A DNA stretch of 64,000 bases from Prevotella sp. Lineage in GTDB: Bacteria > Bacteroidota > Bacteroidia > Bacteroidales > Bacteroidaceae. How positions within the stretch are numbered: position 1 is the stretch's first letter; every line of letters begins with the position of its first letter. The notes below the pieces were generated by a model. That model was not told the origin of the DNA and did no database searches. It saw only the letters and a list, made by a program, of their open reading frames with translations. The position numbers were made by a program, and so were the translations under genes. Shown here piece after piece: positions 38,201 through 47,730 of the stretch. The stretch is from positions 1-64,000 of the forward strand of contig JAFRYZ010000041.1 of assembly GCA_017442825.1 (NCBI GenBank), in the 5' to 3' direction.

Positions 38201-39349
38201 TTAATCTATTACTTGGAAATCTTCTTCACGTACAAAAAGAGGATAATATTTTTTCGTAGCAGAACTGGTGTTTGGTATAAAATTCGTGATTTTGACTTTC
38301 TTTCCAACTAAATCCATATTCTTAAGAAGAACAGAATAATCTTTTCCAATATGACAATAGCCTTTTTCATCCTTTTCTATAATCCCTTCATCTTGTTTTT
38401 GCCAATTTGACATGTTCTGCTGTTTATCTGTGTTTTTTTCTATGTAGGATATAAACCATGAAACAAGTTCAGTTATGGAAAAAAGTAAAGATCGTATTAT
38501 CAATGTGTCACTTCTTTCTGAAACAAATTGATGTACCTCATACTGAAGATTCGGTCCCTTATGTGACCCATCTTGTACCATCTCTACAACATATTGCATT
38601 AGCATATGCAGTGCTTTGGGCAACACCTCTTCGTTCAGATTATAGCCATTTGCTTTTGAACATAGGAATCGACTGAAATTGTTGAGCGAAAGATTTTCTG
38701 GAACAATTCCAAACTGAGCTGATACAGCATTCATATTATCAAGTATTTCTGTACGGAATCGATTGAAATAACTTTCTGTGTTGGTAAGAGACCCTTCTCG
38801 GCTTTGTATGAGCAGTTCTCTAATCAAGTTATATGATTTAGCTTCACATTGCTTGTCAAATACCAGAAAGTAATTCAGTTCTTTTTTATATTGATTATCT
38901 ATCTGAAATTCTACACTATTGATCTTGTCAACATCATTCTTTATTCTTTCGAGCAATGGTCGTGGACCATTACTTTTAAAGAATATGGCATTATTGTATT
39001 TGAAATAGGCCAACGACTCTTCATCTACAAGTTCTGATATATTAATTCGTTGTGTGTAGATGTAGAAAGGAATGTGTTTATATCCTTCCCTCAGAAACAT
39101 AGCTTTTCTGAGACCAGAAACTTCTCTTTCGTCTGATGGGGTAAAATCCTTTGCTGTAAAGTTTGCATCGACTATTACTGCATCAATTCGATGATTGACG
39201 TTTTTCAACATTTCTTCCAACATGACCGCATTATTGCATTTTACGACCTCAACATGCTGCATTGAAAGCAATGCTTTGCCGGTTTCATCCAGCAAAGCAT
39301 CGATTTCGTCATCAGCCCATATAATTTGATATGTCTTATCCATATGCAT
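38201..39349 (-). CDS. Response-regulator-like protein 1 with helical C-terminus
   Basis: 382 aa. Residues ~7-130 form a receiver domain with a complete phosphorylation site: Asp13/Asp14 (IIWADDE), acceptor Asp61 (AVIVDANF), Thr99 (FYIYTQR) and Lys125 (AIFFKSN). Residues ~150-310 are helical and include VVEMVQDGSHKGPN, which resembles the G-N-E-x-x-H core of DUF4145/HEPN-type domains. The last ~40 residues (LVGKKVKITNF...YYPLFVREEDFQVI) match the end of response-regulator-like protein 2. No DNA-binding domain is recognised. It follows the second kinase by 9 bp. Confidence 0.8.
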   Translation of the reverse strand: MHMDKTYQIIWADDEIDALLDETGKALLSMQHVEVVKCNNAVMLEEMLKNVNHRIDAVIVDANFTAKDFTPSDEREVSGLRKAMFLREGYKHIPFYIYTQRINISELVDEESLAYFKYNNAIFFKSNGPRPLLERIKNDVDKINSVEFQIDNQYKKELNYFLVFDKQCEAKSYNLIRELLIQSREGSLTNTESYFNRFRTEILDNMNAVSAQFGIVPENLSLNNFSRFLCSKANGYNLNEEVLPKALHMLMQYVVEMVQDGSHKGPNLQYEVHQFVSERSDTLIIRSLLFSITELVSWFISYIEKNTDKQQNMSNWQKQDEGIIEKDEKGYCHIGKDYSVLLKNMDLVGKKVKITNFIPNTSSATKKYYPLFVREEDFQVID

Positions 39350-39358
39350 ATAAAAAAA

Positions 39359-40666
39359 TTACAACGTTAAAGGAATGGAAATCATGAATGTTGTCCACCA
39401 TTCTTCTTTGTCTGGAGACGAGACCGCTTCGCTTATAAAGTCAAGAGTCCCTCCCATCACAGAAACTATTTTAAACACATGACTTCCGCCTAATCCCGAA
39501 CGACCTGTTTCTGTGCCAAATTTTCCAGAGGTAATGTATTCGTCAATGCTGAAGTCTTTCGGCATCGGCTTTCCATTATTACCAACAGCAATAATGATAG
39601 CATCCTCATCTCCAAGAGAAGTTCGATCAAGGTGTATCTTGACTTTGTTATCAGGGGATGAGGTTTTCTGGAACCCATGCCTGTTCGCATTGTCAAGCAG
39701 GCAGTCCATCATAATTGAAAGGGCAGTCTCATTGGCAAGGATAGTATTCTTCTCCTCCAATTCGCCATCACAATAGAATTCTATAGAGAAGGTTTTGGAG
39801 CCATAGTTTTCCCATCCAAGAATGTATCGCTCCATAAAGTCAACAATGCTAATCCTCTCCTTGGGATAATCATTGAAGTCAGCACCATTCATCTCTATGA
39901 GACGTTTGATATAGCCGAAGTTGTCTTGAATGTAAGCAATCCTCGACCTCCTCTCGTCATCTGTATCCAGCGAAAGAAGTTCCAACGCATTGTTAATACG
40001 TGTATAGGGTGTGCCTAACATGTGGATAAGATCTGAAGATGTCTTCTTGAGCATTTTCCGCTCTTTTGATGCCACAATATCATCAAGGTATTTTTCCTCG
40101 GCCTTGAATTCTGAGATTCTCACCTTCTGTTGTGACAAAGAACCTATCTTGCATCTTAAAGATACCCCATCATGACTGTCACTTATATCCAACAGGAAAC
40201 ATTCTTCCATCGTATGATAGACTACATCACCATGGGGAAATTCATCGGCTTCAAAATAAAGAGAATAGTCGCGACTATTGAGCAACTTCTCCCAAAAGCC
40301 TTGTCTGCACATGTAGAAGACGAACTCGGGAAGCATTTGACTGAAATCAAGGCTGAATATCAAAAAGCCTTTACGCACATATTTACCCTCACCAGTTTTG
40401 TCGAAACGCGCTGCTGGCACAAAAACAGGGTTATCCTGATTAGCCATTATGTAGGCCATGCGAGGATTCTTCATGTCTAGCACAAGTGCCTTAAAATCCA
40501 CTTTATGGAAGGTTTGAGCATTTACGACTCCGTCAGAGAGTTCTGATGGAATGACATAGATAGAATCCCAATCCTTTGCAAAGTTGTCAGCGGTGAACAC
40601 CTTACCTTTTGTCTCATCAAACTTTTCGAAATTAATCAAACTCAGACTACTGCCAAGATTACTCAT
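39359..40666 (-). CDS. Sensor histidine kinase with type I S-subunit-like N-terminus
   Basis: 435 aa from ATG 40666 (a TTG nine bases earlier is rejected). Residues ~30-185 resemble a specificity-subunit target-recognition half (KALVLDMKNPRMAYIMAN, GFLIFSLDFSQMLPEFVFYMCRQGFWEKLLN). A coiled coil follows, then an H-box HMLGTPYTRI (His215) and a GHKL ATPase with N-box CLLDNANRHGF, G1 AVGNNGKPMP and G2 GRSGLGG. No membrane segment is seen, so it is cytosolic. It probably phosphorylates the receiver protein encoded 9 bp downstream. Its promoter has the GGTTCC element. Confidence 0.82.
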   Translation of the reverse strand: MSNLGSSLSLINFEKFDETKGKVFTADNFAKDWDSIYVIPSELSDGVVNAQTFHKVDFKALVLDMKNPRMAYIMANQDNPVFVPAARFDKTGEGKYVRKGFLIFSLDFSQMLPEFVFYMCRQGFWEKLLNSRDYSLYFEADEFPHGDVVYHTMEECFLLDISDSHDGVSLRCKIGSLSQQKVRISEFKAEEKYLDDIVASKERKMLKKTSSDLIHMLGTPYTRINNALELLSLDTDDERRSRIAYIQDNFGYIKRLIEMNGADFNDYPKERISIVDFMERYILGWENYGSKTFSIEFYCDGELEEKNTILANETALSIMMDCLLDNANRHGFQKTSSPDNKVKIHLDRTSLGDEDAIIIAVGNNGKPMPKDFSIDEYITSGKFGTETGRSGLGGSHVFKIVSVMGGTLDFISEAVSSPDKEEWWTTFMISIPLTL

Positions 40667-40704
40667 AACAATCAAAAATTAAAAATTAAACTTTGTTTCG
40701 TTTG

Positions 40705-40775
40705 CAAAGGTAAAAACCGTTTTATATTGCCACAAGCATTTTTGTATTATGAATGGTTCCGTTCTATTGGGAACC
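40705..40775 (-). promoter_or_regulatory. GGTTCC-N9-GGAACC operator plus promoter (type 1)
   Basis: The element (40755-40775) ends 42 bp upstream of the minus-strand -7 box TACCTTTG (40705-40712). The -33 region reads ATGCTTGTGGCAAT, almost the same as at the methylase-like kinase promoter (ATGCTTGTAGCAAT). The element overlaps the last codons of the upstream receiver gene. Confidence 0.82.
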
Positions 40776-41906
40776 GTTTTGCTGCTCTTCTATAAGCTGA
40801 ATATTATAAGCGAAGAAGGGATAAAGCCTTGAAAGGTTGTCGTCGTTATTTGCACCATACTTTACTATTTTAACCTTTTTGCCTAACAATCCATTTTTAA
40901 GTACAAAGCCTGGATTAACTCCGAATTTGCTTCCTACATGATAGATTTTCTGGATTTCGATAATTCCCTCTAAATCATCATTTGTTGGCTTTTCAATCTT
41001 TACACACTTTCTTAAATTTTCCTCTCTATTTGGGTGCTCTTCGATATAATGGGACATCCAGTTAGCTATTTCGTACAGATTAAGAGATAAACTATAAAGA
41101 AGATAATGGGTCTTATTATTTTCATTTGGGTGTGAGAACTCATTCCCAATATTCTTGATCATAGCCATCATTGCACCTATGTATTCAGGAACTATATAAT
41201 CTCCTTGTTGCCCATATCGAACACCGGCATGAAAAGCTGGGTCTCCTACTAGATATCTATAGCACTGATCAATATTTGGCCTTCCTCCACTAAAACATTC
41301 ATTAGGTATTACTCCATTCTTGTTTGCATCTATATATACACATTCTAAAGCCTGACGAATTTGGTTATAGTATAGTTTTGAGTCAAAAGAGATATCAGAA
41401 TCAGGGTTATGCATTTTCTCAAAAATACTTATTATAGATTCACACACATCTTTGTTAATGCTTCCCAATAGTTCGACGACATCTTTATATAGTAGTTTTA
41501 CCTTAAATCTTTCGATATTATCTATTGTATTCCTTATGTCATCAAATAGTTTCTCATCATCAATGTCCTTAATATATATACGCTCATCTTTGAGCATCTC
41601 ATTATCTTTAACCTTGTCTTTCCCCGTAGAGATAAATCGAGGAATTTGTTTATGTTTTTCAGCAAGATACATAAGAGCCTTAAGAAGTCCCTTAGTCGAT
41701 GGTTCTTCATGATCGGACTTATCCTTTATTTCTCCGTCTAAAAGGACTGCATCCCAAGAATTAGGATGTTTGTCTAATTCATCCATCGCAGCCTTCTGGT
41801 ATGAATACGGATGAAGATGAATGTGAAGATCTTCACACTCATCTTTAAACTCCATCATTTTATTCCACTCGTCATCAATCCAGATGACATTATAGTCTTT
41901 CGCCAT
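40764..41906 (-). CDS. Response-regulator-like protein 2 with HEPN/DUF4145-like C-terminus
   Basis: 380 aa. The receiver domain (1-125) has Asp11/Asp12 (VIWIDDE), acceptor Asp57 (AVLLDGE), Ser93/Thr94 (FISTGKD) and Lys113. A helical region (~130-300) includes MIKNIGNEFSHPNENN (about 249-264), close to the core of DUF4145/HEPN-type domains, although the usual Arg before the His motif is Lys here. The C-terminal ~40 residues (LLGKKVKIVKYG...LYPFFAYNIQLIE) match response-regulator-like protein 1. It overlaps the methylase-like kinase gene by 17 nt, so the two are translationally linked. Confidence 0.82.
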   Translation of the reverse strand: MAKDYNVIWIDDEWNKMMEFKDECEDLHIHLHPYSYQKAAMDELDKHPNSWDAVLLDGEIKDKSDHEEPSTKGLLKALMYLAEKHKQIPRFISTGKDKVKDNEMLKDERIYIKDIDDEKLFDDIRNTIDNIERFKVKLLYKDVVELLGSINKDVCESIISIFEKMHNPDSDISFDSKLYYNQIRQALECVYIDANKNGVIPNECFSGGRPNIDQCYRYLVGDPAFHAGVRYGQQGDYIVPEYIGAMMAMIKNIGNEFSHPNENNKTHYLLYSLSLNLYEIANWMSHYIEEHPNREENLRKCVKIEKPTNDDLEGIIEIQKIYHVGSKFGVNPGFVLKNGLLGKKVKIVKYGANNDDNLSRLYPFFAYNIQLIEEQQNGSQ

Positions 41907-44634
41907 ATTTCCTACTTTTTGGTAAATAAATACTTACAGTAATCCAATCGCCATCTTGCGAAATAGAATAGTCACCATTATAATGTCTCACATTCTCGGC
42001 CACCTCATATCCACCGATGCCAGTACCACCTGTCTTTCCTGCATATTTTCTATTCTCACCATAACTCTCCTTAGTTAGTCCTTCTGGTAAAGGGTTTCCA
42101 TTATTCCGAAAGTCGATACGGTACATTTGTCTTTCCTTATCCCAGTTAAGTGCAATTTCTATTACACAATCTTTACTATTAATATATGTAAAGTCATCGA
42201 AGCCATGTTTCTTTGCGTTCTCGAGAATGTTTCTTACAATCTTCCCAAAGTTATATTCTGCAATGTCAACATAAGCCAAGCTACTTTCTGCCAGAGCAGC
42301 TTCTAACCTCTTATTCCGGCTCTTCTCGTCAAGTTTTTTCAATTCTTCTTGATGCTCCTTCCTATATTGGCGAATGGCATCATTCGAAATATTATTAGTA
42401 TATTTTATGGAACAGACATCAGCCCCAAAGTATTCTCGATAATTTCTTAAACTGTAGTCGATATCAAAAGGTGATGCCTCACCATACGTATTCTCTTCAT
42501 TAAGACGCTCAACATCTTCTGAGAGATATAATCGATGAGTCTTGATCACAGCCAATCTATCATTCAAGAACTTTTTTACCTCTTCTGAAGAATCCATATC
42601 ATTGATAAAACGTTCCATGCGACGAACAGCAGAACTAATTTGTTGACTGTGTTTTCGCATCGTATGCTGATAATTTTCCAGTTTAGATTTATACTTTTCT
42701 TGCTCTGCTGTATAATTGCTTCTCATATTAGCAATAACGGTCATTTCCTTTTTCATTCTAGAAAATTCATCACTAATTATTCGTTTATCCGTAGGAACAA
42801 GTATGTCGTCTAAATGATCATCCAACCCAAATTCCGTATATGCCTGTATTTGTCTGTGAACAATCGGCAGCCTGAGAATAGCAACGAGGGTTAAAGCATC
42901 AACACCATCATTAAGAACGAAAGCCTTGATTCCAAATCCTATAGCCATTGGCGTTTTTGCTCCACGTACGATAGCTATATCAATTCCACTCTGAGATGAT
43001 CTAAATAGCACGGCATCTTTCGAGCCATCAAGATATGTGCATCTACGATAATTATAGACCCGACCACCTTTTTTAGTGTATAGCTGTGCTAAAAAATTAT
43101 CTATGAAGTTACCAGATGTGCTAAATCCATAATCCTCAGAACCCTCAACATATTCCGGATTGTTTGGACATTCCGCTTTTTTTATTGTCGATACATCAAG
43201 TTCTCCTTTGAATAAATTGGACAAATCATTCAATTCAACCCATGGCGTATCTTCTGGAAGATTGAACTTCAATGTACTTATGCGAGTTGATGCAAGGGTG
43301 CCAAATTTTGATAAAGGCTGAGGTTTTTCTTCATCTAAAGGCTTCTCTACTACGTATGCCTGTGGTACAAGAAACTCAACATTGAGTTTTTGTGTTGGGA
43401 CAGAAACCATCTTGCGCAGTCCTGTTTCGCCTTCTTTTCCACAATTACCCAGCATCTCTTCGAAGGAGAGCAAATCGAGAACCTCCTTAAAGTTTTTATG
43501 ATTAGTTTTTTTACCAGCAAAACGTGCATCAATCAAAGTAGTTTTGTGGTATTTCCTTCCTTTTTTAGCTATGAGCATACAGAAATCTTCACGAAGATTA
43601 TTTTTGCTCATAACAGAAGGTAGTTGGATAATTTCTGTCAATGAATTATCCTTGATAAGTTTCTCCCATAAAGGACGTAAAGAGTAAAAAGAGTTACTTG
43701 CCCACAAGTGTTCTTTAGGCAAGACCAGTGCAAAAATCCCCCCTTCAGAGAGATTGTCATACGAGACAAAAAGCCTTTTAATAGTTTCGGCATCACTAGG
43801 AAAATTACTATGCAATTCGGAAACTTGTTCTGGAATAGCATTAGGTATCCATGGGATGAAAGAAATTACAGCATCATATTTTACTGGAATTTGACTATCA
43901 ACGATAACCGTCGAATCAATAGAATTTGCAAAGAGGACAATCTTCATCCATGCTGTCATGAGGTTAACTTCGCCCTTGCCTAACCTAATGTTTGATTCTT
44001 CAAGGCATTTCTCACTGAAAGTATTATACCTTTTAGTATAAGAAGCATAGCTATCCTCACAAATGAATTTACAATCTGGATAGATTAAAGGAATTTGAGC
44101 AAATCCTGTAAAAGGATTGTAGATGGTGGAACCAACAGGAATATCAACACGGTTCTTCACCAAATGTAGCAATTCCTCGGGAATAAGTTGCCAGTCCTTC
44201 TCATCATCACGATCAATACAATCGATATCATCACATGGAGTCTGAATGATATAGTTGACCATCTCTTTGAAATGCGATTTCAAGAATGTTTCTTCATCTT
44301 CAGTAAAAATGGTCTTATCATAAACCTCAGGCAAAAGTTGGTCCAGCACATCTTGTTCTGCATTCTCGCCTGCAACTTTTTGATAAAAAAAACCAAGCAA
44401 TTGTTCATTGGTTCTTAAATAATCAATATCGTCTTCTGAGATTTGAATATCAAGGACCATACCACCTTTTTGCGACAATTCATATGCTTCCTCTATCTCC
44501 CGATCATATTGTGCTTTATAGTCTTCAGCCAACTCCTTAGCTTTAATACTCCCTTTTCCCACCTTAGTGCGATATAGTTCTACGAGGTTAATCACTCTCT
44601 GCTGAATCTCTGCTGTGTTCTGTGCGTTCTGCAT
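41890..44634 (-). CDS. N6-methylase-like / S-subunit-like sensor histidine kinase
   Basis: 914 aa in one chain. Residues ~130-400 follow the HsdM-type methylase order: motif I region STIYNPFTGFAQ (169-180), acidic FICED (190-194), and YDAVISFIPWIP (253-264) where active enzymes have NPP(F/Y). The catalytic motif is thus lost. Residues ~410-620 resemble a type I specificity region (PWVELNDLSNLFKGE, RSSQSGIDIAIVRGAKTPMAIGFG). A coiled coil and possible H-box (QHTMRKHSQQI, His657 or His662) precede a GHKL ATPase (N-box IVRNILENAKKHGF, G1 DFRNNGNPLP, G2 GGTGIGGYEV). It looks like a cytosolic DNA-reading kinase, not a methyltransferase. Confidence 0.8.
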   Translation of the reverse strand: MQNAQNTAEIQQRVINLVELYRTKVGKGSIKAKELAEDYKAQYDREIEEAYELSQKGGMVLDIQISEDDIDYLRTNEQLLGFFYQKVAGENAEQDVLDQLLPEVYDKTIFTEDEETFLKSHFKEMVNYIIQTPCDDIDCIDRDDEKDWQLIPEELLHLVKNRVDIPVGSTIYNPFTGFAQIPLIYPDCKFICEDSYASYTKRYNTFSEKCLEESNIRLGKGEVNLMTAWMKIVLFANSIDSTVIVDSQIPVKYDAVISFIPWIPNAIPEQVSELHSNFPSDAETIKRLFVSYDNLSEGGIFALVLPKEHLWASNSFYSLRPLWEKLIKDNSLTEIIQLPSVMSKNNLREDFCMLIAKKGRKYHKTTLIDARFAGKKTNHKNFKEVLDLLSFEEMLGNCGKEGETGLRKMVSVPTQKLNVEFLVPQAYVVEKPLDEEKPQPLSKFGTLASTRISTLKFNLPEDTPWVELNDLSNLFKGELDVSTIKKAECPNNPEYVEGSEDYGFSTSGNFIDNFLAQLYTKKGGRVYNYRRCTYLDGSKDAVLFRSSQSGIDIAIVRGAKTPMAIGFGIKAFVLNDGVDALTLVAILRLPIVHRQIQAYTEFGLDDHLDDILVPTDKRIISDEFSRMKKEMTVIANMRSNYTAEQEKYKSKLENYQHTMRKHSQQISSAVRRMERFINDMDSSEEVKKFLNDRLAVIKTHRLYLSEDVERLNEENTYGEASPFDIDYSLRNYREYFGADVCSIKYTNNISNDAIRQYRKEHQEELKKLDEKSRNKRLEAALAESSLAYVDIAEYNFGKIVRNILENAKKHGFDDFTYINSKDCVIEIALNWDKERQMYRIDFRNNGNPLPEGLTKESYGENRKYAGKTGGTGIGGYEVAENVRHYNGDYSISQDGDWITVSIYLPKSRKYGERL

Positions 44635-44792: not shown

Positions 44793-45983
44793 CTATTCTT
44801 GACCTCCCAACTCTTCATTTATGAACTTCTCAAGCGTGGACTTGTCTGGCAACTGGAGCATGTAGGTGGAAACAAACAGGTTGTTGTCCATACCGGCTAT
44901 GGCATACTCCACCATCTTCTTGCCTTTGCGGGTGCAGAGAAGAATCCCGACAGGAGGAATGTCGCCAGGATGCATCTCGTTTTCCTTATAATAAGATACG
45001 TACGCATTAAGCTGACCTAAATATTCGTGCTTAAACTCGTCATTCTTCAATTCCACGATGACATTGCAATGAAGGATACGATTGTAGAATACAAGGTCAG
45101 CAAAATAGTATTCGTCATCAATTATCATACGTTTCTGCTTGTCTTCAAAGCAGAAACCTTTGCCGAGTTCCAAGAGGAAGTCTTGCAAATGATCTATGAG
45201 TGCCTGCTCTAAATCATCTTCAGTAACAGCATCTTTTGCATTCAAGCCCAAGAACTCGAAAGTGAATGGTTGGCGAATGGTGAGAGCTGGCGAGATGGTT
45301 TCTGGCTTGATGGAAGCGAGTAACTTCTTAGGATCTTTGCTCACTCCACTTCGGAAATAGAGGTTGGTTGCTATCTGGCGACGCAGTTCCTTGACAGACC
45401 ATGTACCTTTAATACACTCCGTTTCGTAGAAGAAACGAGCCAAAGGATCTTTCTGAGTCATAATCTCACAGAGATGTGAAAATGGAAGTCGCTCTATTAT
45501 TAATTTGGCAGGTGTCGCAAATTCATCCGATGGCATCGGATGAATTCCCAACGAATCGTTCTCCAATTCATCCGATACTGTCGGATGAATCTTCTTAATC
45601 AATTTGTGCGATGCTGTCGCACGAATTGGCAATAGTTCTGCAATTTGTGGATAAAGATTGTAAAAAGTTCGTGAATTTCGGAAAAGAGTTTCATTCAACC
45701 CTTTCGTATTCAAGCGCTCTTCTAACCGTTTCAGCAATCGCTCACCATACTTCGCCTTATCACTTCCCTTCTGCTCGTACTCCACAATGTAACAGCCTAT
45801 AAGCCAGTTGCGCAGAGTTGCCATCTGATTGATTGACTTGACAGCACCAGCTTGGGCAGACTGATGGGTCTGTAGAATTGATGCTGACAATTCTTCAAAT
45901 GAAGGAGTAGTCTTTTCTTGCCATCCATCAGCTATGATTGAGAGTTGCTTTGTATTCGAGTCCATTACATTATTTTCTTCCAT
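44793..45983 (-). CDS. DUF1016/YhcG-type PD-(D/E)XK nuclease-domain protein
   Basis: 396 aa. The N-terminal DUF1016 helical domain (about 40-120, RNWLIGCYIVEYEQKGSDKAKYGERLL) is followed by a Ser/Pro/Asp-rich linker (about 122-160), a middle helical part and a C-terminal PD-(D/E)XK nuclease fold (DEYYFADLVFYN, VIVELKNDEFKHEYLGQLNAYV, ILLCTRKGKKMVEYA). Such proteins often sit inside type I restriction loci and may be nucleases of mobile or defence DNA; the role is not settled. The gene overlaps the WYL gene by 14 nt. The linker is encoded by three 27-bp DNA palindromes. Confidence 0.9.
   Translation of the reverse strand: MEENNVMDSNTKQLSIIADGWQEKTTPSFEELSASILQTHQSAQAGAVKSINQMATLRNWLIGCYIVEYEQKGSDKAKYGERLLKRLEERLNTKGLNETLFRNSRTFYNLYPQIAELLPIRATASHKLIKKIHPTVSDELENDSLGIHPMPSDEFATPAKLIIERLPFSHLCEIMTQKDPLARFFYETECIKGTWSVKELRRQIATNLYFRSGVSKDPKKLLASIKPETISPALTIRQPFTFEFLGLNAKDAVTEDDLEQALIDHLQDFLLELGKGFCFEDKQKRMIIDDEYYFADLVFYNRILHCNVIVELKNDEFKHEYLGQLNAYVSYYKENEMHPGDIPPVGILLCTRKGKKMVEYAIAGMDNNLFVSTYMLQLPDKSTLEKFINEELGGQE
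45520..45627. repeat. Three 27-bp palindromes encoding the DUF1016 linker
   Basis: Units at 45520-45546, 45565-45591 and 45601-45627 have 11-bp arms (AATTCATCCGA with TCGGATGAATT; the third is AATTTGTGCGA with TCGCACGAATT) and 5-nt spacers TGGCA, TACTG and TGCTG. All stay in frame and encode the HPMPSDEF-type linker. Confidence 0.8.
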
Positions 45984-47067
45984 TTGTATATTCTTCTAAT
46001 TGTTTCGTAAGAATCGCTGTGATTTGCTCTCGCAAAGAATACGGTGCCATCACTTCGAGATATTGACCGTATGCAAGGATCTTTCCACAAAGTTCGCGAT
46101 TTGGTTCTATCGTCAAAGAAATCTCTCCATAACAGCCGTCCTCATGCTCGCCAAAAGCAAGTGATTCCTCCTGAGAATGGTGTAGTGGCTTTGTCAGTAA
46201 AAGGCCGTGTTGGTATCTTGTTTTTGTTCGAATAACAACGTCTTCTACATGTGCACCTGCCTCATGAGTTACACCTATTATATTATTAAAGTACTCTTGA
46301 TAGAAACCATTTTCAGCTGGGATATATTCAACATCTCTAACGATGGTTACTTCGCCGAGAATTCTGTCCAACGGAACATTATAGGCTTTAAAAGGTTCAC
46401 GGTCTGCTTCGCCAAAGACAAACCATCGCCCATTATATTCTTTGATGTATTGAGGATGAAACGTCAAGGTAAAAGCATCCTGCCCAAATGGGTGATAGGT
46501 GAAACGTAATACATGATGGTCTGTGATAGCGGTATAGAACTCCGGAAGCAAATGAATGTTGGTTAGATTCTGTTCAAGACTGGAGCGGATGAACATATTA
46601 CCTCCTTCAGCGGCTCGATTCGTATCAAGCAACAACTGGGTGTTCTCAAAGAAAGAAGAAAACCAGCTAAAAGGTAAAATGCCAGCAGAAGCCTTACAGA
46701 ATGCAACATAGTCTTCTAAAGACTTTTGTACAACAGCCTTACGTTCTTCAGCCAAAGGGTCATCTTTTTCACCAACATATCTGTAAGTTTTACCTTTGCC
46801 CGTCTTGCCGTTATCTTCAATACATCCTGGACTTACCGTTTCCAAAGCTCTGATTATCTCAGATGAAGCCTTTTTTAAATCTCCATAATATTTCTCCCCA
46901 GACAAAGTTTTTGTCGGGTTATTGTCATAAAAGCCTTTAGGATATCCTCTCTTAATACACATGATGTCTGCAAGTGAGATGTAGTCTCGCTTCATCAATT
47001 CATCATATAGAATATTCACGAATATTGTTTTTACGCCAATTCCAGCAAAGATATTCCTAGTAGGCAT
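45970..47067 (-). CDS. WYL-domain transcriptional regulator
   Basis: 365 aa from ATG 47067. The ORF to 47103 is rejected because the -7 box lies at 47090-47097. An N-terminal helical, winged-helix-like part precedes the WYL domain (about 195-280, including LRFTYHPFGQDAFTLTFHPQYIKEYNGRWFVFGEADREPFKAYNVPLDRI) and the WCX C-terminal extension (NRELCGKILAYGQYLEVMAP). WYL proteins bind ligands, often nucleic acids or nucleotides, and control defence and mobile-element genes. It shares a transcript with the DUF1016 nuclease gene. Autoregulation through the palindrome at 47140 is inferred. Confidence 0.88.
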   Translation of the reverse strand: MPTRNIFAGIGVKTIFVNILYDELMKRDYISLADIMCIKRGYPKGFYDNNPTKTLSGEKYYGDLKKASSEIIRALETVSPGCIEDNGKTGKGKTYRYVGEKDDPLAEERKAVVQKSLEDYVAFCKASAGILPFSWFSSFFENTQLLLDTNRAAEGGNMFIRSSLEQNLTNIHLLPEFYTAITDHHVLRFTYHPFGQDAFTLTFHPQYIKEYNGRWFVFGEADREPFKAYNVPLDRILGEVTIVRDVEYIPAENGFYQEYFNNIIGVTHEAGAHVEDVVIRTKTRYQHGLLLTKPLHHSQEESLAFGEHEDGCYGEISLTIEPNRELCGKILAYGQYLEVMAPYSLREQITAILTKQLEEYTNGRK

Positions 47068-47089
47068 GATAATAGATTTTAGGACAATG

Positions 47090-47198
47090 CAAAGATACAA
47101 CAAATCTATTTAAAACGACTATTATCTTTTTAATTATTTTTCCACAAGCCTTGTGATTTGATTTTTCTTGGAAATAATATTTGGCAGGTATAATTTTG
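47090..47198. promoter_or_regulatory. Divergent promoters around a shared type 2 palindrome
   Basis: The half-degenerate palindrome TTCCACAAGCCTTGTGATT (47140-47158) lies 32 bp before the rightward -7 box TAATTTTG (47191-47198, tandem-repeat protein gene) and 42 bp before the leftward -7 box TATCTTTG (47090-47097, WYL gene). The 10-bp difference is one DNA turn, so both promoters see the site on the same face. Confidence 0.75.
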
Positions 47199-47235: not shown

Positions 47236-47730
47236 ATGAAAAAGTTAATGATGACATTGATGGCTGTCGTATTCGCCATCACAGCTAACGCACAGTACAG
47301 CTCTACCTATTATAACCAGTATGGTGGCAGTATCGGCTCGTCAACGACACGTTCCAACTATGGCGGAGGTTACACCACAAACTACTACGACCAGTATGGA
47401 AGTAGTACGGGAAGTGCTACTACCCGTTCTAATTACGGCGGAGGGACTACGACGAACTATTATGACCAATACGGTGGCAGTACAGGGAGTGCTAGAACTC
47501 GCTCCAACTATGGTGGTGGCTACACAACGAATTACTATGATCAGTACGGTGGCAGCGCAGGCAGTTCCACAACCCGTTCTAACTATGGTGGAGGAACGAC
47601 CACCAACTACTATGACCAGTACGGAAGCAGTATCGGTTCCTCAACAACTCGCTCCAATTATGGGGGTGGTACAACCACAACTTATTATGATGCTTACGGC
47701 AATAATATCGGCTCAAGTTACGACAGGTAA
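47236..47730 (+). CDS. Secreted tandem-repeat protein rich in Gly, Tyr, Ser, Thr
   Basis: 164 aa: a signal peptide (MKKLMMTLMAVVFAITANA) then six imperfect ~24-aa repeats with the core TTNYYDQYGGSTGS.TTRSNYGG. The lack of hydrophobic core suggests a disordered or fibrous surface protein, but no family is recognised. It is transcribed divergently from the WYL regulator and under the shared palindrome. A hairpin at 47743-47790 follows. Confidence 0.75.
   Translation: MKKLMMTLMAVVFAITANAQYSSTYYNQYGGSIGSSTTRSNYGGGYTTNYYDQYGSSTGSATTRSNYGGGTTTNYYDQYGGSTGSARTRSNYGGGYTTNYYDQYGGSAGSSTTRSNYGGGTTTNYYDQYGSSIGSSTTRSNYGGGTTTTYYDAYGNNIGSSYDR
47300..47700 (+). repeat. 72-bp tandem repeats in the secreted protein gene
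   Basis: Units run in steps of 72 bp and keep the AACTA(C/T)TATGA(C/T)CAGTA core. The copies differ mostly at third codon positions, which shows selection on the protein repeat rather than very recent DNA expansion. Confidence 0.8.

Follow-up and report, generated by a model that had tools for sequence, protein, structure and literature searches.

The window analysed here, a stretch of 64,000 nucleotides of Prevotella sp. DNA (GenBank assembly GCA_017442825.1, contig JAFRYZ010000041.1, positions 1 to 64,000 of the forward strand), carries two tandem histidine kinase/receiver pairs. As judged from sequence, these pairs are members of a soluble two-component family of the Bacteroidota, in which an apparently dead methylase (M) domain and one HsdS-like specificity (S) domain form the sensor. 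In relatives, the pair often appears as the 5' part of a type I restriction-modification (R-M) operon. The function favoured here, tentatively and at somewhat less than an even chance, is that of a two-component guard of restriction, whose M-S replica would sense interference with, or engagement of, restriction. The locus joins two-component signalling and restriction. If it does act as a guard, gut and rumen Bacteroidota would detect attacks on restriction by a histidine-aspartate phosphorelay, and anti-restriction proteins could be sensed and then answered through exchangeable outputs. It would also offer a function that can be tested directly for a set of large soluble kinases and receivers, the window members of which have no specific library name.

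Two tandem kinase plus receiver pairs had been reported in an initial annotation of the window, and all four open reading frames are present:

41890..44634, minus strand: kinase 1 (P0001, 914 amino acids (aa)), with an HsdM-like region, an HsdS-like region resembling a target-recognition domain (TRD), a DHp domain and a GHKL ATPase.
40764..41906, minus strand: receiver 1 (P0002, 380 aa), with a REC domain, a helical domain and a small beta domain.
39359..40675, minus strand: kinase 2 (P0003, 438 aa from a TTG start; an alternative ATG start lies at 40666), with a TRD-like N-terminus, a HisKA-like helix and a GHKL ATPase.
38201..39349, minus strand: receiver 2 (P0004, 382 aa), of the same family as receiver 1.

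In kinase 1, the HsdM-like region covers approximately aa 1-430, the single HsdS/TRD-like region aa 430-645, and the GHKL ATPase aa 795-906. The long helices of the DHp domain lie at aa 617-712, where H657 is aligned to the family histidine and H661 is an alternative. Pfam HATPase_c is matched above its curated cut-off in both window kinases (P0001, 2.9e-7; P0003, 6.6e-10), and the Pfam scan of P0001 itself found no methylase or TRD family. Among 22 aligned family kinases (E ≤ 0.1), N6_Mtase is found in 13 (best match 8e-30), Methylase_S in three, HisKA in two and HATPase_c in all 22.

Profile comparison with hhalign supports both sensor regions to different degrees. The first region of the P0001 clade (12 sequences) matches HsdM at 98.4% (E 4e-14), and the second matches the first half of HsdS at 72.7% (E 4e-6), while ten controls (five per region: HsdR, WYL, helicase, receiver and the other subunit) give 0.3% or less. 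For the sensors of ten further kinases of the family, the score is 100% against HsdM and 98.8% against HsdS. When the P0001-clade regions are compared with these sensors, the first scores 99.6% and the second only 12.3%; therefore, the TRD part of kinase 1 is less certain. Each kinase has one TRD-like unit of approximately 170-220 aa, unlike the two-TRD HsdS. No difference in net charge was seen between the TRD-like part and HsdS (P 0.13), which decides nothing. The P0001-clade profile matches the HsdM structure 3lkd at 1.2e-5, and the broader family profile A5 matches EcoR124II M at 2.7e-27 and EcoKI M at 3.3e-6. Searches with P0001 alone gave nothing clear against PDB sequences and no match against plasmids and phages, and none of 36 pattern matches in viral contigs was a relative of P0001.

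The AlphaFold model of kinase 1, based on 22 sequences (the window protein and database relatives), has a mean predicted local distance difference test (pLDDT) value of 79. With Foldseek, 332 PDB matches were obtained at E ≤ 0.001, and the 50 listed among them are all N6-adenine methylases, one of which lies inside a type IIG enzyme. The best listed match is 7eew (E 2.1e-13), in which the DNA mimic Ocr is bound to an intact type I methylase. The query-normalised template modelling (TM) scores are low (0.24-0.31), as is expected because only part of the multidomain chain aligns. The description of the 914-aa chain in the initial annotation as an HsdM-like, HsdS-like and GHKL kinase fusion, for which fold prediction and profile comparison of residues 130-620 had been proposed as the check, is thus borne out, with the TRD part as the weaker element; a methylase fold and, less certainly, a TRD-like one were found in this region, and a receiver fold in the partner.

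The methylase domain looks like a pseudoenzyme, because its catalytic motifs are lost. When 44 long kinases and 21 HsdM sequences are placed in a single alignment, motif I ([DEN]PxxG[ST][GA]) and motif IV ([NDS]PP[FYW]) occur together in none of the kinases and in 19 of the HsdM. Three of the kinases have motif I alone and four have motif IV alone. At the motif sites P0001 reads NPFTGFAQ (I) and SFIPW (IV), and many family kinases read NPFAGLAS-like at motif I. The nearest to an intact pair is the kinase of locus L135 (NPFTGIG, SPPF), and single members such as this might retain some methylase activity. An active fused methylase was rejected on the basis of the lost motifs. The phospho-acceptor histidine column, on the other side of the balance, is His in all 44 long kinases. 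The usual G1 box of histidine kinases is DNGxG, and that of most of the aligned kinases is NNGxP. An HsdM-like frame of 364 aa (L124), the only one of 17 HsdM without NPPF in an earlier count, was excluded from the final count. Six later kinases (L135-L142) enter the motif count only; the L138 and L139 kinases, which are partial or broken, are not in the alignment. The long-kinase sets exclude L065 (incomplete kinase) and the short kinases P0003, L028 and L030, and duplicate contigs from two collections (L060, L063, L073, L075, L080) were excluded from the kinase, HsdM and HsdS sets.

The maximal 19-residue hydropathy is 1.55 and 1.31 in the two window kinases, so neither has a clear membrane segment, as had been stated, and a membrane sensor was rejected on these values. 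Among 38 long kinases, six reach 1.6 or more, with a top value of 1.96.

Kinase 2 had been said to keep only a specificity-like N-terminus. In hhalign, a profile of this N-terminus and two relatives scores 93% against the TRD-like region of ten other family kinases (70.7% for the N-terminus by itself), which supports the claim; the same profile reaches only 14.3% against HsdS itself and 0.2% against the TRD-like region of the P0001 clade. Its phospho-acceptor is H218 within HMLGTP, and Pfam HisKA is matched weakly (0.088). Short TRD-like kinases of the kinase 2 type are also found, with a receiver and a large protein of 878-894 aa, at L028:4852-9789 and L030:7249-12217. The large proteins match no significant Pfam family, and that of L028 has cysteine-rich stretches near its end; they are possibly effectors.

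The receivers consist of a REC domain (approximately aa 1-130 in P0002), a helical domain (aa 140-300) with weak similarity to DUF4145, and a small beta domain that extends to the end. Both had been described as keeping every phosphorylation residue, and this holds: P0002 has the acid pair, Asp57, Thr94 and Lys113, and P0004 has the equivalents. Receiver profile A2, which includes P0004 as one of its rows, matches it at E 1.4e-90. Among 25 receivers, Asp12, Asp57 and Thr94 are invariant, and Lys113 is Lys in 22; the remaining three have a Lys close by, perhaps through an alignment shift. Four C-terminal residues, Arg184, Asn211, Pro240 and His259, are likewise the same in all 25. The AlphaFold model (pLDDT 88.9) has PorX and other receivers as its best Foldseek matches in the PDB, and the receiver profile gave only three unrelated weak matches against PDB sequences. 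No DNA-binding domain was recognised in the receivers, and a transcription-factor role was set aside as improbable on this ground. The active-site motif of HEPN ribonucleases is R-x4-6-H; the receiver Arg184 and His259 are far apart in sequence, and P0002 has no Arg at this spacing. DUF4145 is matched weakly in 11 of the 25 family members at E ≤ 1 (best 0.0038), and the HsdR of two embedded operons, L055 and L116, carries DUF4145 (4e-7 and 1e-8). A domain common to receiver and HsdR is only suggested by these matches.

The same pair had been proposed for a search across the Bacteroidota, and relatives were found, often in type I R-M operons. At E 0.001, P0001 has matches in 16 of 151 genomes from the family and 21 of 296 from the phylum; several of these matches cover the ATPase region only. 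Receiver-profile matches at E ≤ 1e-15 occur in 11 of 395 phylum genomes, to which genome G437 (1.3e-15) adds one, and in 13 of 395 class genomes (own genome included in both). Matches at approximately 1e-15 or better span 13 families of the genome samples, including its own. From the two samples, 20 receiver-anchored loci outside the own genome were obtained. In 11 of them (L052, L053, L055, L116, L117, L118, L135, L136, L137, L140 and L142), HsdM follows directly after the receiver on the same strand, with gaps of 3-74 bp. Three others have R-M genes within 10 kb (L121, L141 and L054, the last with an HsdR-like gene beside the WYL gene), two lie in type III CRISPR operons (L120, L143), one has McrB-like and McrC genes downstream (L122), and in L119 the pair stands alone. 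The contig of L138 is too short to judge, and that of L139 has only 842 bp downstream of the receiver. The matches of G437 (L122) and G661 (L143) cover only positions 4-139 and 5-254 of 357, and L136 and L137 are from one genus and hence not fully independent.

Where the pair lies outside hsd operons, HsdR tends to be present elsewhere in the genome. In 15 such genomes (own included; two with the short kinase type), an HSDR_N match occurs in all 15, compared with 34 of 55 non-carriers among 61 family genomes (Fisher test, 0.002; 0.009 for same-family carriers only, four carriers being outside the family). A strong match (E ≤ 1e-25), counted for carriers on a contig other than the pair's own, occurs in 13 of 15 versus 21 of 55 (0.0009; same-family, 0.0015). 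In G203, a second HsdR match lies beside the pair. The own genome has, elsewhere, a cluster of HsdM, a DUF1016-fragment, HsdS and an HsdR-like gene without a kinase pair (L123).

The kinase transmitter and the receiver vary together. In 34 pairs, the identity correlation is 0.81 for transmitter/receiver and 0.52 for sensor/receiver; given the third part, the partial correlations are 0.76 and 0.33, neither of which was reached in 2000 permutations. Left out of this set are L076, where the kinase frame is interrupted, L025, whose receiver frame is split, and the pairs of L121 and L122. Two R-M operons, L033 and L074, show such joint movement at DNA level: their DNA is 93.6% identical from before the WYL gene to kinase codon 591 (18 codons before the histidine), has no blastn match from there to the receiver stop, and is again 93.8% identical through HsdM and DUF1016; their HsdS and other cargo are different. 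The swapped segment corresponds to L033:8053-9901 and L074:11386-13380, a clean exchange between the two operons. Transmitter and receiver are exchanged as a single cassette. Their co-variation and joint exchange give indirect support to phosphotransfer between the partners. Pairwise comparison of the window kinase with five Prevotella-type relatives, and of these with one another, places the least conserved 50-residue block downstream of the histidine, in residues 651-800, in 14 of 15 pairs.

The sensor, in contrast, does not follow the specificity of the neighbouring restriction system. Between L033 and L074, identity is 97% in HsdM, 99% in the methylase-like and 90% in the TRD-like part of the sensor, and 49% in HsdS. 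Between L136 and L137, it is 94% in HsdM, 97% in the kinase (90-100% in 50-residue blocks), and 41% in HsdS, with single blocks down to 13%. In a set of 11 R-M operons, the own HsdS ranks 5, 8, 5, 7, 2, 4, 7, 1, 3, 11 and 5 in likeness to the TRD-like part, and is thus the closest in only one. Because the sensor keeps 90% identity or more where HsdS falls to 41-49% in the two operon pairs, it probably does not read the changing methylation site of the local system. A methylation sensor for the local R-M site was therefore rejected on these two natural operon pairs. DNA or its modification state had been named as a plausible input; for the local site the same comparison and the lost motifs argue against this, and other DNA might be the input.

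For the guard of restriction favoured here, we infer the trigger, the phosphotransfer, the output and the phage protection. The sensor would imitate the M-S half of the restriction enzyme within the kinase itself. The kinase would respond to a phage that attacks the restriction machinery or occupies it, for example through a DNA-mimic anti-restriction protein binding M-S, or to engagement of the enzyme. The triggered kinase dimer would autophosphorylate and hand the phosphate to its own receiver, which would work by protein contact rather than as a transcription factor, and would switch a linked effector (here perhaps the YhcG protein encoded upstream of kinase 1) or the restriction complex itself. 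The window pairs, with no adjacent R-M genes, would be stand-alone guards, possibly acting in trans on a type I system elsewhere in the genome. This reading is preferred because of the operon linkage, the HsdM/HsdS homology, and the loss of the methylase motifs with the histidine kept; because transmitter and receiver co-vary and are swapped as a cassette while the sensor is independent of HsdS specificity; and because of HsdR in trans, the Ocr-bound best PDB match, and the precedents for guarding restriction, namely PrrC with EcoprrI, PARIS and Ronin (PMC2610378, PMC12409349). A fuller version is possible, although less likely than not: an integrated decoy, in which the dead M-S replica lets phage anti-restriction proteins trip the kinase, exchangeable cassettes choose the response, and cousins serve type III CRISPR and McrBC.

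Several observations weigh against a guard of restriction. No R-M genes adjoin the pairs in the window. In 11 R-M operons, the methylase-like part of the sensor is in no case closest to its own HsdM, and the divergence of sensor and HsdM is uncorrelated when the L033/L074 pair is left aside (r -0.09), so a specific one-to-one M-sensor partnership is unsupported. The 11-operon comparison leaves out L065, L135, L136, L137, L140 and L142, and L061 is represented by its second HsdM and the HsdS of the latter. The Ocr complex as top structural match reflects the available structures, not binding. The cut-off for the strong HSDR_N match was chosen after seeing the matches, and the HsdR enrichment may reflect defence-rich genomes. 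The C-terminal part of the receivers does not significantly match the HsdR-linked DUF4145 domain by hhalign. Finally, receiver relatives in type III CRISPR and McrBC operons mean that the role may be broader than restriction guarding.

It is doubtful that the pseudo-methylase/TRD dimer is a direct DNA sensor, which would read sequence, methylation or free ends and report to the receiver. DNA is the normal ligand of methylase and TRD-like folds, the proteins appear to be soluble, and TPPF, SPPF or NPPF is retained at motif IV in some of the kinases; however, the sensor is nearly constant where HsdS has changed, in both L033/L074 and L136/L137, and the least conserved block falls outside the TRD-like part in 14 of the 15 kinase pairs compared. 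The sensor might nevertheless bind other DNA or a DNA mimic. A tuner of restriction is unlikely. The kinase, as an M-S mimic, would here sit in or compete for the R-M complex, and the phosphorylated receiver would raise or lower restriction (restriction alleviation) with no phage trigger. The tight linkage in the operons agrees with this, as does DUF4145 on the HsdR of L055 and L116 with its weak likeness in the receivers, but that relationship is not significant by hhalign, and hsd genes are absent downstream of 28 of the 44 long kinases (a set that is not a random sample).

A cofactor sensor, whose dead methylase fold would bind S-adenosylmethionine (AdoMet) or S-adenosylhomocysteine and report its level, for example when a phage enzyme destroys AdoMet, is quite unlikely: motif I is intact with a broken motif IV in L121, L122 and L141, yet by pattern it is intact in only three of 44 kinases, and the degenerate forms of P0001 and many others argue against a kept cofactor site. 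Very improbable is a decayed, functionless R-M remnant. The isolation of the window pairs from R-M genes, the broken kinase of L139 and the interrupted kinase frame before the receiver in L076 would suit it, but the frames in the window are intact, the phospho-acceptor histidine and the receiver Asp57 are universal in the 44 kinases and 25 receivers, and the receivers are spread across 13 families.

Compared with known systems, kinase 1 resembles the type I M-S enzymes (EcoR124II, EcoKI and the V. vulnificus methyltransferase 7eew) in having an HsdM-like fold followed by an HsdS-like target-recognition domain, and differs from them in the absent catalytic motifs, in having one TRD-like domain instead of two, and in the fusion to a histidine kinase. 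With orthodox two-component systems the pairs have in common the HisKA-like DHp, the GHKL ATPase, the receiver phospho-site residues and the adjacency of the genes; they differ in having no clear membrane segment, a pseudo-restriction sensor, a receiver without a recognised DNA-binding domain, and the NNGxP G1 box. The anti-phage system Detocs consists of a kinase and a receiver with a TPR-type sensor and an ATP-cleaving or other effector; the sensor here is HsdM/HsdS-like. PrrC is similar in its genetic linkage to R-M, and PrrC, PARIS and Ronin in that restriction inhibition triggers a second defence (PMC2610378, PMC12409349). PrrC and PARIS have nuclease effectors, and the passages on R-M guards mention no histidine kinase/receiver pair. 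Pfam found no ABC ATPase/anticodon nuclease family of the PrrC/RloC type among the six operon proteins; neighbours in relatives include AAA_13 in L033 and AAA_21 with RloB in L081. The part established as common to PorX and the receivers is REC, and PorX carries a PglZ-type domain (PMC12839542).

Among the PADLOC 2.0.0 models, P0002 and P0003 have no match, P0001 has only a weak match to ZorA (0.05), P0004 has weak matches to CARF (0.003) and PDC-M38B (0.011), and P0006 matches a generic WYL model. The kinases of L140 and L142 match the MADS models mad2 (1.5e-11) and mad5 (1.9e-12), besides many type I methyltransferase and specificity models. The initial annotation knew of no described system with this architecture; likewise, no prior description of such a kinase/receiver system was found in a literature search, with subscription papers and preprints outside its reach. 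The legend of Fig. 6F in the DefensePredictor paper names HATPase and REC among predicted systems (PMC13092281), with which the present family might overlap.

The span 38201..44634 given initially is correct for the four frames and leaves out two further genes of the same strand, which precede them:

45970..47103, minus strand: WYL/WCX-domain regulator (P0006), putatively the first gene of the operon (Pfam WYL 1.5e-6, above its cut-off; WCX 1e-4, just below).
44793..45983, minus strand: YhcG/DUF1016 PD-(D/E)XK nuclease family protein (P0005; Pfam YhcG_C 4.5e-52, DUF1016_N 9.5e-25), which matches the PADLOC candidate PDC-S02 at 4e-118.

The order of the six genes is thus WYL, YhcG, kinase 1, receiver 1, kinase 2, receiver 2. 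The WYL and YhcG genes overlap by 14 bp and those of kinase 1 and receiver 1 by 17 bp; the remaining gaps are 158, 97 and 9 bp. The G+C content of the six genes is 34-43%, versus 47.1% for the window, which fits acquisition by transfer. Chance open frames were rejected on the basis of the domains and the conserved relatives.

Of the 44 long kinases, 35 have a WYL gene no more than 4.5 kb away, and for 42 a downstream receiver was recognised by pairwise search; of the other two, L122 has a receiver recognised by profile only, and in L076 the kinase frame breaks off ahead of the receiver. The genes between WYL and kinase vary: YhcG in the window, AAA_21 with RloB in L078 and L081 (Pfam was run on L081), AAA_15 in L022 and L023, and others, while L024, L071 and L072 have none. 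The YhcG family also occurs in the type I R-M operons of L033, L074, L061 and L135. Like the window, L081 carries two pairs in tandem. A scan of genome contigs yielded 24 loci, five of them already known, with titles such as Bacteroidales, Prevotellaceae, Bacteroidaceae and Prevotella; they include Segatella baroniae B14 (L061), Segatella copri, Prevotella sp. tf2-5 and Paramuribaculum intestinale. The gene order of the window, with WYL at the front and small genes and a PIF1-type helicase behind the receiver, recurs in many Prevotella-type relatives. This helicase (window:34966-37047) with its small neighbours recurs by kinase-receiver cassettes in Prevotella-type genomes, and the region is a candidate defence hotspot.

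Other associations were also observed. At L120:6759-12188 (G216:C124), a full-length receiver relative (99.5% against A2 by hhalign) and a 763-aa GHKL kinase lie inside a type III-A CRISPR operon with Cas10/Csm1, RAMPs, Csm4, Csm5, a Csx1-CARF-like protein (below its cut-off) and Cas6; the sensor region of this kinase has no match, only the ATPase being recognised. At L143:421-4543 (G661:C237), a receiver relative is just upstream of Cas6 and a reverse transcriptase-Cas1 fusion. At L122:1-6686 (G437:C5), a pseudo-methylase kinase and its receiver are directly upstream of AAA_5 (McrB-like) and McrC, a type IV restriction pair. In the window itself, positions 47236-47730 encode a small secreted-looking protein with tandem units of approximately 20 residues rich in glycine, tyrosine and serine.

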